A program made the position numbers and the translations under genes. From NCBI GenBank assembly GCA_023667315.1, contig JAMPAI010000014.1, positions 1-49,972 of the forward strand: a stretch of 49,972 nucleotides of DNA. Direction: 5' to 3'. Of this stretch, positions 12,810-17,603 are shown one piece after another. Within the stretch, counting starts at the first letter, position 1. Each line of letters starts with the position of its first letter. Under the pieces are notes generated by a model that was not told where the DNA came from, did no database searches, and saw only the letters and a program-made list of their open reading frames with translations. The DNA is from Ruminococcus flavefaciens. Lineage in GTDB: Bacteria; Bacteroidota; Bacteroidia; Bacteroidales; P3.

Positions 12810-14048
12810 ATGTGGAGTGTTGTTTTAAGTTCGGTGGCCGTTTTCCTGGTGGTCATCCTTATTTTGGTGGCCGTGTTGTTGCTGGCGCGCAAGAAGCTGG
12901 TGCCGCAGGGAAAGGTTAAACTGCAGATAAACGGAGAAAAGACCTTGGAAGTGGACACGGGCAACTCGCTCTTGTCGACCCTGGCTTCCCAAAAGATATT
13001 CCTGCCTTCGGCCTGCGGGGGCAAGGGCAGCTGCGGGCTGTGCCGCTGCCGCGTTACCGAGGGCGGGGGCAGCATCCTGCCTTCCGAAAAGGGCTTCTTC
13101 TCGTACCGCGAACAGCAGCAGAACTGGCGTCTGGGCTGTCAGGTAAAGGTGAAGGGCGATATGTCGGTGCAGATTCCGCCCGAAGTGTTCGGGGTGCGCA
13201 AGTGGGAATGCGAGGTGGTGTCGAACAAGAATGTGGCCACCTTCATCAAGGAATTCGTGGTGAAGCTTCCCGAAGGGGAGAACCTGAACTTCAAGGCGGG
13301 CGGCTATATCCAGATCGACGTGCCGGCCTGCACGGTAAACTATAAGGACATTCAGGTGCAGGAGGAATACCGCGTCGACTGGGACAAGATGAAGATGTGG
13401 GACTTGGTGATGAAGAACCCCGAACCCTGTTTCCGTGCCTATTCGATGGCCAACCATCCGGCCGAGGGCAACCGCATCATGCTCAACGTGCGTATCGCCA
13501 CGCCGCCATTCGACCGCAAGAAGGGCGGTTTCATGAACGTGAACCCCGGTATCTGCTCCTCGTACATCTATTCGCTCAAGCCGGGCGACAAGATTACCAT
13601 TTCGGGACCCTACGGCGAGTTCTTCGTGCAGGATACGCAGCGCGAGATGATGTTTATCGGCGGGGGCGCGGGCATGGCGCCCATGCGTTCGCAGATTTTC
13701 GACCAGTTCAAGACAAGGCATACCAGCCGCAAGGCTTCGTTCTGGTACGGAGGCCGCTCGCTCAAGGAACTGTTCTATATGGATGAATACGAGCAACTGG
13801 CCAAGGAAAATCCCAATTTCAGTTTCCACGTGGCTCTGAGCGAACCGCTGCCCGAAGACAACTGGACGGGCGACACTGGTTTCATCCATCAGGTGATTTT
13901 CAACAAATACCTCAAGAACCATCCCGAACCCGAAGAAATCGAGTACTACCTCTGCGGGCCCAAGCCGATGACGGATGCGGTGGTGAGGATGCTGGATAGT
14001 CTGGGTGTTCCCCCGGAAATGATTCGCTACGACAACTTCGGTAATTAA
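12810..14048 (+). CDS. nqrF: Na+-NQR subunit F (NADH dehydrogenase)
   Basis: A 412-residue electron-entry subunit. One N-terminal transmembrane helix (residues 5-26) is followed by a plant-type [2Fe-2S] ferredoxin domain with ligands Cys69, Cys75, Cys78 and Cys110 (CGGKGSCGLC...LGC). An FAD domain follows with RAYSMANHPAE, and then an NADH domain with IGGGAGMAPMRSQIFD and YYLCGPKPM. The C-terminus ends in NFGN, as in the family. The stop codon lies inside the left arm of an inverted repeat that may form the 3' end of the operon mRNA. Confidence 0.96.
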   Translation: MWSVVLSSVAVFLVVILILVAVLLLARKKLVPQGKVKLQINGEKTLEVDTGNSLLSTLASQKIFLPSACGGKGSCGLCRCRVTEGGGSILPSEKGFFSYREQQQNWRLGCQVKVKGDMSVQIPPEVFGVRKWECEVVSNKNVATFIKEFVVKLPEGENLNFKAGGYIQIDVPACTVNYKDIQVQEEYRVDWDKMKMWDLVMKNPEPCFRAYSMANHPAEGNRIMLNVRIATPPFDRKKGGFMNVNPGICSSYIYSLKPGDKITISGPYGEFFVQDTQREMMFIGGGAGMAPMRSQIFDQFKTRHTSRKASFWYGGRSLKELFYMDEYEQLAKENPNFSFHVALSEPLPEDNWTGDTGFIHQVIFNKYLKNHPEPEEIEYYLCGPKPMTDAVVRMLDSLGVPPEMIRYDNFGN

Positions 14049-14170
14049 ACGTGTTTTGGGGGCGGGCTGCTGCGTTGGGCATTGGAGGCTACTCGGTCAC
14101 GTACTTCAGTACGCTCCCTCGCATCCCCCAATGCCCGCCTTGCATCCCACTCCCCAAAACACGTTTAATT
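14043..14170. repeat. 128-bp nested inverted repeat at end of nqr operon
   Basis: The outer arms AATTAAACGTGTTTTGGGG (14043-14061) and its exact complement (14152-14170) enclose a second pair GGGCATTGG/CCAATGCCC and a central CGTACT-TC-AGTACG hairpin. The nqrF stop codon is inside the left arm. It could act as a transcript-end stabiliser or factor-dependent terminator. Layout and sequence resemble the 2291-2548 elements. Confidence 0.8.
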
Positions 14171-14195
14171 GAACTGGCTCCGTCGGTTTTACTTG
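14136..14195. repeat. 60-bp direct repeat, copy 1
   Basis: Starts CGCCTTGCATCCCAC and ends GGTTTTACTTG. It matches 14267-14326 at roughly 85% by eye and overlaps the right arm of the 128-bp inverted repeat. Confidence 0.75.
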
Positions 14196-14200
14196 CATCT

Positions 14201-14221
14201 CACCATTCAAAACGCTTTTTT
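14201..14221. repeat. Inverted arm shared with the 2.3-kb repeats
   Basis: CACCATTCAAAACGC followed by a T run is the reverse complement of the arm AACGCGTTTTGAATGGTG seen at about 2298-2318 and 2422-2442, with one mismatch in about 21 positions. This links the two intergenic repeat loci. Confidence 0.7.
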
Positions 14222-14266
14222 AGGGCCTTCGGATATAGTGAATGCTCCCGCGCAAGGCTGGTTTTC

Positions 14267-14326
14267 CGCCTTGCATCCCACGCCCCAAAAGCCTTTTAAT
14301 TGAATTGGCTTCGTTGGTTTTGCTTG
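14267..14326. repeat. 60-bp direct repeat, copy 2
   Basis: Second copy of the 14136-14195 repeat, offset by 131 bp. It is more degenerate in its CCCCAAAA-x-TTTAATT part, as expected of a decayed element. Confidence 0.75.
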
Positions 14327-14372
14327 ACCGCTCCCGAATCCTTTCTTTACATCCTACACTAAGTGTGAAATC

Positions 14373-14500
14373 TTGGAAAAACGGCAAAATTGGGGTGTTT
14401 TACCTTGGAAAAGCGGCAGATTTTAGGGAAAATTTCTTGGAAAAACGGCAAAAATAACCTATTTTGTATTGGAAAAGCGGCAGATTTTATCTGATTTGAT
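14373..14500. repeat. Four-unit phased array, exactly 32-bp period (A-B-A-B)
   Basis: Units start at 14373, 14405, 14437 and 14469, each 32 bp apart. Units 1 and 3 begin TTGGAAAAACGGCAAAA; units 2 and 4 begin TTGGAAAAGCGGCAGATTTT. About 18-21 bp is conserved and the remainder of each unit varies. The spacing is close to three helical turns, which would put all copies on one DNA face. It lies immediately upstream of an AAA ATPase remnant. There are no Cas genes, and conserved and variable parts are too short for CRISPR. Confidence 0.85.
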
Positions 14501-14526
14501 TGAAAATCTGCTAAATAATAGGTTTT

Positions 14527-14714
14527 ATGATAAGGCGAAAGATAGACGGTTTCCTTAAGCGGTACTAGCAGACACACGGAATGCATTGTTGCTTACCGGA
14601 GCACGGCAAATAGGCAAGACGTATTCGGTTCGCGCGTTCGGCAAGACCTTTAAGCATTTTGTGGAAATTTTGATAAACGAAAGCGTTCAGTCTGAACAAT
14701 CTCCATCTTGTTGA
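14527..14714 (+). pseudogene. AAA ATPase remnant (DUF4143-type), frameshifted and truncated
   Basis: An ATG at 14527 opens MIRRKIDGFLKRY and hits TAG at 14566. Shifting frame at 14568 continues ADTRNALLLTGARQIGKT and then YSVRAFGKTFKHFVEI, a Walker A P-loop with the flanking sequence of the AAA_14/DUF4143 ATPases that usually run about 400 residues. The pattern fits loss of about one base at 14566. After about 35 more codons the family match ends and the frame stops at 14712-14714. Intact members are cytoplasmic ATPases of unknown role, common in several copies in Bacteroidota. The phased array directly upstream may be its old regulatory region. Confidence 0.75.
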
Positions 14715-14779
14715 TGGAGAAAGTCGATAGATGTTGAAAAAATATTTGTTTGCATGGTTGTGTGTTGTCAATAATTTGT

Positions 14780-14787
14780 TATATTTG
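14780..14787 (+). promoter_or_regulatory. Promoter GTTG-N19-TATATTTG
   Basis: TATATTTG with a GTTG 19 nt upstream (14757-14760) fits the sigma-ABfr promoter. It drives the FGE-like lipoprotein gene after an A-rich leader of about 55 nt. That leader ends in AAACCTTAAAACACAAAA, almost the same as the leader of the gene at 37073. Confidence 0.6.
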
Positions 14788-14848
14788 TATTGATAGATCA
14801 TGGGAGCATGGTATATAAACGAAACACAAACCTTAAAACACAAAACAA

Positions 14849-15679
14849 ATGGAAAAATTAATTAAGGCAGGCTTTCTGAGCCTGATGGTGCTTGTCTTTA
14901 TGACCTCGTGCGAAAAGGAAAAAGGGCAGGAAAGACACGAAAACTACACGGAAACCGCATTCGGCATGTCTATGGACATGGTTTATGTGGAAGGGGGAAG
15001 CTTTATGATGGGGGCAACCGAAGAGCAAGGAGCGGAGGTAAACGAAGATGAAATGCCTGTTCGAGACATAAACATAGGTTCCTATTATATAGGAAAGTAT
15101 GAGGTTACTCAGAGCGAATGGGAAGCGGTAATGGGAACATCATTGGTTGAGCAAGGGGAACAATCGTTTTATTATGAGATTTGGGGCATGCGCGGAGAAG
15201 GTCCCGATTATCCGATGTATTATGTAAGCTGGGAAGATGCACAGGAATTTTGTAAAAAATTGAGCGAACGTACAGGAAAGAAGTATGTATTGCCTACGGA
15301 AGCTCAATGGGAATATGCTGCCCGAGGAGGCAAGAATAGTAAAGGTTACAAATTCAGTGGCGGAGATGATATTGAAGAAGTGGCTCATTATCATGGAAAC
15401 GGGGACGGCCAAAATCATCCTGTAGGAACCAAGGCGGGAAATGAACTTGGAATCTTTGACATGAGTGGCAACGTATGGGAATGGTGTGCGGATTGGTATG
15501 GCCCGTATAGTGAAAGTGAAACCAATAATCCTTCAGGACCCGACGAAGGTGAGGATCGTGTAGTTCGTGGGGGGAGTTGTTTTGACTATGAGGCAACATG
15601 CAGGGTTGCACGTAGAAATTATGATTATCCTGATAATCGGTTTATTATTATAGGGTTTCGTATAGCACGGATCCTTTAG
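14849..15679 (+). CDS. FGE/SUMF1-domain lipoprotein
   Basis: A 276-residue lipoprotein. The signal MEKLIKAGFLSLMVLVFM is followed by the lipobox TSC. From about residue 42 it is a formylglycine-generating-enzyme (sulfatase-modifying factor) fold: DMVYVEGGSFMMGAT, YYIGKYEVTQSEWEAVMG, YYVSWEDAQEFCKKLSE, YVLPTEAQWEYAARGG, GIFDMSGNVWEWCADWYG and RVVRGGSC. The C-terminus reads CRVARRNY and IIGFRIARIL. No sulfatase is nearby and many family members in Bacteroidota are not true FGE enzymes, so its activity is open. Relation to gliding/T9SS components GldJ/GldK is only at fold level. Confidence 0.9.
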   Translation: MEKLIKAGFLSLMVLVFMTSCEKEKGQERHENYTETAFGMSMDMVYVEGGSFMMGATEEQGAEVNEDEMPVRDINIGSYYIGKYEVTQSEWEAVMGTSLVEQGEQSFYYEIWGMRGEGPDYPMYYVSWEDAQEFCKKLSERTGKKYVLPTEAQWEYAARGGKNSKGYKFSGGDDIEEVAHYHGNGDGQNHPVGTKAGNELGIFDMSGNVWEWCADWYGPYSESETNNPSGPDEGEDRVVRGGSCFDYEATCRVARRNYDYPDNRFIIIGFRIARIL

Positions 15680-15692
15680 TCTAATGTACTTG

Positions 15693-15736
15693 CAAGAAGA
15701 GAGAGGCGGCAAATTCATGCCGCCTCTCTCTTCTTG
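15693..15736. terminator. Strong bidirectional terminator
   Basis: An 18-bp perfect stem (CAAGAAGAGAGAGGCGGC and its complement) around the 8-nt loop AAATTCAT, sitting between two convergent genes ending at 15679 and 15751. Confidence 0.88.
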
Positions 15737-16807: not shown

Positions 16808-17260
16808 CTACCGCTGCAGCTGCATCAAATAATTGGTTAGCGGAACACCGTTGCGTTTCACCGTATTGACCGCCAAGGTTTTGTAGCCTCGTTTTTCGAA
16901 AAACGGCCTTGCCGTGATGGACGCATGAACCGTAATGCAGTCCGCTTTTGCCAGGGATTCGAGGCGGTTGCATATCACGGTGGCAATGCCTTTGCGCTGG
17001 TGCGCATAATGCACGTAAAGCCGGTCGAGATAACCGGAGGAGTCCATATCCCCGAAACCCACAATCTTTCCGTTATCGACCGCCACCATCGAGATATGGT
17101 TTCGTAAGGAGGCATCCCAATCCTCCCGGTTCACTCTTCCCGAAGCCCAGGCATTTACCTGTTCTTCGGAATAGTCCCGGATATTGACCCGGTGCACCGT
17201 TTCGTAAAACAGTTGCAGGATTTCCTCTAAATCATCGGAATCGTAAGGCCGGAGGTGCAT
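16808..17260 (-). CDS. GNAT-family N-acetyltransferase
   Basis: A 150-residue acetyl-CoA-dependent transferase. Motifs: MHLRPYDSDDLEEILQLFYE at the N-terminus, VDNGKIVGFGDMDSSGYLDR as the central strands, LYVHYAHQRKGIATVICNRL as motif A with the pyrophosphate loop Q-R-K-G-I-A, and ARPFFEKRGYKTLAVNTVKR as motif B. The layout is like YafP/PhnO-type GNATs. The substrate cannot be assigned. Its first 29 bp overlap the end of a truncated RhuM reading frame on the same strand, suggesting that a rearrangement joined them. Confidence 0.9.
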   Translation of the reverse strand: MHLRPYDSDDLEEILQLFYETVHRVNIRDYSEEQVNAWASGRVNREDWDASLRNHISMVAVDNGKIVGFGDMDSSGYLDRLYVHYAHQRKGIATVICNRLESLAKADCITVHASITARPFFEKRGYKTLAVNTVKRNGVPLTNYLMQLQR

Positions 17261-17603
17261 TGTGGTTTTGCGTAGTGTTCAGTTTGAGGGCGCCACGGTG
17301 CGGCTTGACACGGTATCCCACACTGATAATCATGTCGAGGTTGTAGAAGGCGATGTTGCGTTCCACTTTGCGTGAACCTTCGTCCTGAACTGTTGCAAAA
17401 AATGCAACAGTTGCATCGGCACTTAGTTCCCCCTCGTCAAACACATTCTTAATATGCCGTGAAATGGTGGACTTATTGCGTTGAAACAGTTCCGCCATCT
17501 GGTCGGCAGTGAGCCATACGGTATCGTTAGACAAGGTTACCTCGATATTCGTGTTCCCGTCTGCTTCCTGATACAGGATGATGCTTCCTTTATTTTGCTC
17601 CAT
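17232..17603 (-). pseudogene. Truncated RhuM-family protein
   Basis: The reading frame opens MEQNKGSIILYQEADGNTNI and matches the N-terminal part of RhuM proteins through VWLTADQMAELFQRNKSTIS, HIKNVFDEGEL, ATVAFFATVQDEGSRKVE and FYNLDMIISVGYRV (about residue 98). Full RhuM continues for another 200 or more residues. Here the family match stops after KPHRG and the frame ends in unrelated residues overlapping the GNAT start. It has an intact helix-turn-helix-like N-terminus but no C-terminal domain, so it is a remnant or a short product of unknown activity. Confidence 0.75.

Follow-up and report, generated by a model that had tools for sequence, protein, structure and literature searches.

PDC-S01 has been described as an ATPase domain fused to a member of the PD-(D/E)-X-K superfamily and is reported to rank fourth in frequency among the defence systems of prokaryotes (PMC12988326); in a rumen survey no other individual locus was as frequent (PMC13356809). 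Experimental validation of most PDCs of the core defensome is pending (PMC12988326); this, together with the prevalence of PDC-S01, is why a code in its promoters would matter. In a Thermus strain with Argonaute, one DUF4143 gene showed a 6.6-fold rise with plasmid DNA, a change not observed without Argonaute (PMC4406477). That rise hints at inducibility and is not tied to repeats. In our searches of the open PMC literature, outside which most subscription papers lie, we found no description of promoter repeats for the DUF4143/PDC-S01 family. The repeats described here lie in front of a broken gene of this kind, and the downstream genes that we examined in other genomes are members of the PADLOC PDC-S01 / AAA_14-DUF4143 ATPases.

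The window, that is the whole stretch of 49,972 nucleotides analysed (Ruminococcus flavefaciens contig JAMPAI010000014.1), contains four exact copies of TTGGAAAARCGGCA whose starts follow one another by exactly 32 bp (Table 1). The complete assembly of 2,928,964 bases (88 contigs) has just these four exact matches and zero matches to the pattern read backwards. The array is real and not a chance pattern, and it is not a coding repeat because its 32-bp unit is not divisible by 3. The sequence-only reading had reported exact 32-bp phasing, strict A-B alternation and no coding capacity. All three hold in the window, where the ninth base of the units runs A-G-A-G and the bases after it alternate between CAAAA and CAGATTTTA. 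Elsewhere the alternation does not generalize: it is clear also in L084, L097 and L110, but among 42 arrays with three or more units, unit i was nearer to unit i+2 than to unit i+1 in 16 and less near in 26. We therefore dropped it as a general feature and take it as incidental in the window. The strict 32-bp spacing likewise belongs to the window, its relatives having 32 or 33 bp.

Table 1. Positions of the repeat units, the predicted promoter box and the gene remnant in the window
Feature	Position	Strand	Basis and remarks
Repeat unit 1 core TTGGAAAAACGGCA	14373..14386	+	Exact pattern match
Repeat unit 2 core TTGGAAAAGCGGCA	14405..14418	+	Exact pattern match; 32 bp beyond unit 1
Repeat unit 3 core	14437..14450	+	Exact match; its own TTG is the predicted -33 box
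Predicted -7 box position	14460..14466	+	Off the TAnnTTTG consensus in the window; the G004 orthologue fits the consensus
Repeat unit 4 core	14469..14482	+	Exact pattern match
AAA_14/DUF4143 ATPase 5' remnant	14527..14668	+	Early frameshift, truncated; homology ends at about the last position given; PF13173, tblastn, alignment

Rfam gave no match at 13900-15700 of the window, and therefore no known RNA element lies there. A distant search of plasmids with 14340-14700 also gave no match. A CRISPR array, with its unique spacers, its repeats longer than 20 bp and its neighbouring cas genes, was considered and rejected: the repeats here are 14-17-bp cores in two to five units, and as regards cas the rejection is based on the finding that no neighbour family occurred in more than 3 of 40 loci. 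Other repeated elements were noticed in the window. Between the nqrF-like gene and the array (14043-14326) there are palindromic intergenic elements with CACGTACTNNAGTACG and a duplicated 61-nt segment whose copies, 87% alike, are 131 bp apart; a similar element is found in the G004 orthologue described below. At 2285-2531 there is a 124-bp tandem pair (93% matches) with a similar palindrome, CTTACTTTAGTAAGTGACC. A frame of 123 aa at 17232-17603 on the minus strand, probably truncated, resembles the N-terminus of a RhuM-type protein.

The gene remnant begins with an ATG 44 bp past the last core. It contains a PF13173 match at 14577-14669 (E 4.3e-4) and agrees at 81% over 42 aa with the L097 protein (tblastn, E 9e-20). 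No uninterrupted frame of about 447 aa was found in the window; about 142 bp of the 5' end are left, and these are frameshifted. The congener G004 (contig JAMPIH010000004.1) has the orthologous array, L097, with spacings of 33, 32 and 33 bp, ahead of an intact 447-aa gene. The neighbourhood is that of the window, and the two have in common the upstream reading frame, which we take to be nqrF-like. In L097 the unit matching window unit 3 has TAnnTTTG at +23. With its early frameshift, truncation and off-consensus -7 box, the window copy looks like a decaying allele, and the array appears to be the control region of a gene that died here recently.

A motif pair at 27-37-bp spacing was found in 3 of 190 genomes of the family, namely the window's genome, G004 and G014. 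The G014 array (L039 / L164) is an orphan: three units of the window motif at 33 bp stand between HTH-like and response-regulator-like genes (named by eye), with no ATPase in about 1.5 kb on either side. We then scanned contigs, one genome standing for each GTDB species, for TTGGAAAANNGGC pairs at any spacing of 21-51 bp, which gave at least 119 stretches. Two viral contigs were added; among the matches listed, 195 motif pairs were counted, and in 149 of them the spacing was 32 or 33 bp out of the permitted 21-51 bp. Tightening the motif to TTGGAAAA[AG][ACT]GGC at 32 or 33 bp gave at least 89 arrays. An AAA_14/DUF4143 gene starts less than 300 bp downstream in 55 of 89 among the matches listed, as judged by tblastn with 40 seed proteins; the 40 seed genes count within the 55, because the seeds are frames downstream of these same arrays, chosen by P-loop pattern and a length above 400 aa. 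The search that the sequence-only reading had called for, of its consensus at 32-bp spacing ahead of such genes, was thus successful on many Bacteroidales-labelled contigs. Its suggestion that the array may be a conserved regulator-binding region of that gene family stands in outline, with three amendments: the spacing is 32 or 33 bp, alternation is not general, and TTGGAAAARYGGCA is the repeat of one subfamily, other paralogues having other repeats at equal spacing, or at 23 bp in another subfamily.

The remaining 34 of the 89 arrays (among the matches listed) had no gene match; in 5 of these the sequence ends within 300 bp, leaving 29 of 84 arrays that are not cut off and have no adjacent ATPase match. 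Therefore some arrays persist or act without the gene. Twenty-seven orphans were inspected, three of which retain a decayed gene start (L106, L129 and L162; E 7e-4 or better), with L148 doubtful. Two ATPase-less arrays within the 89, L048 (Actinomycetaceae label) and L077 (Nitrospirae label), were omitted from these 27 and from the unit logos below. By eye, the orphan arrays L129, L148 and L153 lie 13-30 bp past the stop codon of another ATPase-like gene.

Labels of the motif contigs are mostly Bacteroidales. Among the 40 intact genes, seven have an Akkermansia or Akkermansiaceae label; Bifidobacterium pullorum DSM 20433 and Clostridium (L085) account for one each, and the promoter of L085 is of the Bacteroidota type. 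The labels are those of the records and may include errors of MAG binning; this caveat notwithstanding, the Akkermansia- and Bifidobacterium-labelled genes differ in promoter type too. The window-type core also precedes proteins down to 46% identical to that of L097, at loci picked by that core. Apart from the ATPase, no gene within 2.5 kb was seen to travel with the array across the 40 loci, the largest neighbour family occurring in 3. Other layouts were kept outside the 89, namely arrays at 31 bp (e.g. L070, L131, L158), 21 bp, 35 bp and wider. The three 31-bp TTGGAAAANNGGC arrays, on records labelled Kiritimatiellae, Verrucomicrobia and Spartobacteria, are followed by TTCCAATG and show a TTGGAA/TTCCAA symmetry unlike the Bacteroidales arrays. 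The viral contigs gave two pattern matches, one with 51-bp spacing and one in a 33-bp array of a different core, TTGGAAAANNGGCCCTC. The latter (L166, IMGVR_UViG_3300048588_000315) has six TTGGAAAANNGGCCCTC units at 33 bp and is apparently a different repeat.

The array is the predicted promoter of the gene behind it, the TTG of one unit being the predicted -33/-35 box. Among the 40 intact genes, TAnnTTTG lies 23 bp after a motif start 18 times and 22 bp after it 6 times, and the remaining offsets between 15 and 33 are all empty; 32 of the 40 are on contigs without an Akkermansia(ceae) or Bifidobacterium label. Bacteroidota sigma-ABfr promoters have TTTG/TTG near -33 and TAnnTTTG at -7 (PMC7366714). 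The 24 occurrences of TAnnTTTG at +22 or +23 agree with this predicted layout, from which the window copy departs at -7. In the eight genes with Akkermansia, Akkermansiaceae or Bifidobacterium labels, the last unit carries TTGGAA, followed after 17 bp by TAnnnT in six and by TATAAA or TTTATA in two (TAAAAT twice, TAGAAT twice, and TAGTAT, TACAAT, TATAAA and TTTATA once each). This is the layout of an ordinary sigma-70 promoter. From the two promoter types, therefore, the core stays on the -33/-35 element and the downstream box follows the host. Logos were made from 81 units of 32 bp and 60 of 33 bp, in which positions 1-8 and 11-13 are fixed by the search pattern; of the positions left free, 14-18 show conservation and are rich in A, 19-24 show hardly any conservation, and 25-29 are A/T-rich.

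Many paralogues of the gene have an evenly spaced repeat of their own, unrelated to the others. The window's genome has 35 AAA_14 and 22 DUF4143 matches, and many of these are preceded by further direct repeats at the window's spacing, e.g. AAAGTTCGGTCGGAAAA at 33 bp, CCATGGAAAAATGTGT at 32 bp, and TATGTCTGACTTTTTGCA three times at 33 bp (one copy with one change). A first survey of other genomes covered 113 regions of at least 116 DUF4143 matches whose open frame spans 370 aa or more (G211:C215, G199:C322 and G198:C82 were omitted). Adding 27 genes from the 30 AAA_14 loci of the window's own genome gave 140 genes, 138 of them with a recognisable P-loop. Each was scored by the best 17-mer repeat at a spacing of 18-60 bp in the 230 bp upstream, with a threshold of at least 14 matches. 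A repeat was found in 41 of 63 genes of the GARQ/GARR class, 35 of them at 31-35 bp, so that 28 of 63 fall below the criterion of a repeat at this spacing. In the GxKxCGKT class 14 of 15 genes had a repeat, always at 23 or 46 bp, and in the GxRRxGKS class 16 of 26 had one, nine of which are in the 31-35-bp range (at 32-33 bp). For the GPRQ/GPRR class the count was 10 of 27, with 4 at 31-35 bp and a few genes with 22-23-bp repeats, and for the remaining classes 2 of 7, with zero at 31-35 bp. The 33-bp repeats of L276, L285 and L304, all of the GxRRxGKS class, look palindromic, e.g. TTCTATTTGAAATAGAA in L304.

Control ORFs in the surveyed loci had a repeat in 25 of 214, 11 of them at 31-35 bp; five of these 11 are the ATPase array seen from a divergent neighbour and six are not. 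Single-base shuffles reached 14 in 1 of 138. TAnnTTTG was also present close to 40 of the 53 genes that lack a repeat of at least 14 matches, so its mere presence is not diagnostic.

For a hold-out, 60 genes of the GARQ type were picked with a protein profile and regardless of repeats, in genomes that the first set does not contain and with criteria fixed beforehand; we went down the profile match list, accepting genes with no stops at loci not already sampled. A repeat at 31-35 bp preceded 37 of 59 readable genes (12 at 32 bp and 25 at 33 bp), and 22 of 59 fell short; three further genes had a repeat at other spacings. None of 114 control ORFs had a repeat at 31-35 bp, 11 having one at other spacings, and dinucleotide shuffles gave 7 of 1,180. 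The Fisher p of 1.2e-22 is optimistic because some genes are closely related, and the hold-out favours the GARQ class because the profile was built from motif-selected proteins. Among the best 30 loci of the same profile search, some of which overlap with the first set, 21 of 29 readable genes had the repeat at 32-34 bp. The 23-bp class was held out by protein similarity to L030 (30 loci, 29 readable, 21 new): 17 of the 21 new GxKxCGKT genes passed the score, all 17 at 23 bp; in the other four the best repeat was weaker and lay at 23 or 46 bp. When the GARQ-like genes were pooled (GARQ, GARR, GCRQ, GVRQ and GPRQ P-loops), 93 of 161 distinct genes had an array at 31-35 bp, 57 of the 93 with three or more in-phase units. 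The 68 of 161 without an array at 31-35 bp by this criterion may have arrays that are too diverged, or none.

Five of the proteins encoded behind these arrays were searched (L097, L065 of Duncaniella muris DSM 103720, L135, L126, L082). All five match PF13173 and PF13635 above the curated cut-offs, and all five match the PADLOC defence candidate PDC-S01 (PDLC04792) over nearly the full length with E values of 1e-199 to 1e-176. Over 66 sequences, E339, E378 and K380 are invariant and D365 is conserved in at least 90%; we take these four residues to be the predicted PD-(D/E)XK nuclease motif. The AlphaFold model from these 66 sequences, a more diverse alignment, replaced a first model that had low confidence in the winged helix, and has a mean pLDDT of 89.3. 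It places in order an AAA core, a helical region, a module at 233-307 and a helix-strand core at 335-430, on which the four residues sit. The module consists of helices 233-248, 256-259 and 265-278 and strands 281-287 and 298-307, and we read this helix-helix-helix-strand-strand arrangement as a predicted winged helix, within which the confidence goes down to 57-60 over residues 251-270. The nearest Foldseek structure was a Pyrococcus Walker ATPase (TM 0.42-0.52), followed by weak matches to Orc1 bound to DNA (TM 0.27-0.30), other ORC subunits, NLR and Avs ATPases, and MuB. A single-protein sequence search found no relatives in the PDB; with a profile, most PDB matches fell in the ATPase region of other ATPases, and the few remaining ones were weak, a Cas4-family exonuclease (E 0.82) among them.

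The repeats tested are private to their genes. An exact genome-wide search found each of four repeats in its own promoter alone, and each of the 14 repeats searched with one mismatch allowed stayed within its own locus over 142,818 bp of own-genome sequence. Across 59 genes, 12 of which are motif-picked TTGGAAAA genes, repeat similarity follows protein identity (Mantel r 0.64, p 0.0005, 1,999 permutations). Taking the winged helix by itself (0.635) does not raise the correlation above that of the whole protein (0.641). Such a correlation is necessary for self-recognition and not a proof of it, because linked DNA drifts together. When the genes were divided by C or T at motif position 10 and corrected with four principal components, residues 249 and 262, both inside the predicted winged helix, ranked first of 282 columns. 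The family-wise p of the best column was 0.07, which is not significant. The association is swamped with zero components and fades with eight, and the 3,000 permutations are too few to resolve the family-wise value at zero and two components. The result is a suggestive hint that depends on the correction for relatedness.

These data led us to the proposal that the array is an operator-promoter, and that each ATPase probably binds and represses its own promoter through the predicted winged helix. What the analysis establishes is the array, its spacing, its constant place relative to the promoter boxes, its association with the gene, the privacy of the repeats tested and their co-variation with the protein; binding by the ATPase itself, repression through this binding and a role in defence are inferred. 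In the intact relatives one unit provides the predicted -33/-35 element, with one to four further units beside it, mostly 32 or 33 bp apart. Several copies of the ATPase would bind the repeats cooperatively through the winged helix, and the phased multimer would occlude the -33/-7 region and keep its own expression low until foreign DNA or ATP turnover releases the repression. A spacing of 32-33 bp is about three helical turns and would fit copies lined up on one side of the helix; at 23 bp, about 2.2 turns, they would have to pack differently. Each paralogue would read its own repeat only, which would allow independent control of the numerous DUF4143 genes in a genome.

Operators are commonly read by dedicated regulators, and the repeats could be read by one or more separate host-encoded proteins, the ATPase being merely the regulated gene. 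An example is the RptR repressor, whose targets are three direct repeats in a defence-island promoter (PMC12255303). We consider this explanation unlikely for the present arrays: the motif goes with the gene on Bacteroidales, Akkermansia and Bifidobacterium labels without a neighbour family in more than 3 of 40 loci, and the unrelated private repeats of paralogues in one genome would need a different regulator for each. The ATPase is the simplest candidate regulator because no other gene was seen to travel with the array across the 40 loci and the arrays of paralogues in one genome differ. The arrays might instead be loading or recognition sites of the ATPase-nuclease, used for self-marking or for storage and release onto foreign DNA, the overlap with a promoter being secondary. 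Orc1/ORC and MuB, its weak structural neighbours, are DNA-loading proteins, the subfamily-specific spacing suggests an ordered multimer, and orphan arrays without the gene exist. The constant position of the repeats relative to -33/-7 boxes, or to -35/-10 boxes under the labels of other phyla, argues for transcription control, and no exact copies were found elsewhere in the genome for any of the four repeats tested; we regard such sites as distinctly improbable. Neutral tandem repeats from replication slippage or local duplication near mobile genes are very improbable, in spite of units 1-2 and 3-4 of the window being 84% alike over 55 nt, the shown units of L204 identical and two of three in L267 identical, since in the 32-34-bp arrays the 17-bp core agrees at 0.88-0.98 between copies (inflated by the choice of the best window) against about 0.3-0.6 for the intervening bases, and since the period goes with the protein subfamily (32-34 or 23 bp) and was found in 0 of 114 hold-out controls.

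Self-repression by the ATPase-nuclease thus remains our preferred reading. It has a bolder form, which we offer tentatively and regard as rather doubtful, in which these very widespread single-gene candidate defence ATPase-nucleases would be self-addressed, each gene having a private, subfamily-phased code on which its own protein assembles. The array would be at once operator and holding site, and loss of occupancy, by titration or foreign DNA, would release and arm the nuclease, so that dozens of paralogues could work without cross-talk.

If PDC-S01 genes carry private phased operators, each protein would have a predicted DNA target and each promoter a predicted regulator. There would then be many natural pairs of protein and repeat, from which a recognition code of the winged helix might be learned, and the separation of some twenty paralogues in one genome (22 DUF4143 matches here) would be explained. 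Among known systems, plasmid iterons resemble these arrays in having phased direct repeats that adjoin the gene of the presumed binding protein; iterons belong to plasmid replication origins. The likeness to toxin-antitoxin autoregulation is that a gene product represses its own promoter (PMC12255303), as we propose here. Toxin-antitoxin systems differ in that the present case has a single gene with no recurrent partner in 40 loci, and the DNA-binding module is predicted inside the effector itself. RptR is similar in having several direct repeats over the promoter of a phage-defence locus, and different in being a separate homodimeric repressor on 9-bp repeats (PMC12255303). In the arrays described here, by comparison, cores of about 14-17 bp stand 32-34 or 23 bp apart, they are specific to the paralogue, and the ATPase-nuclease is their sole recurrent neighbour.
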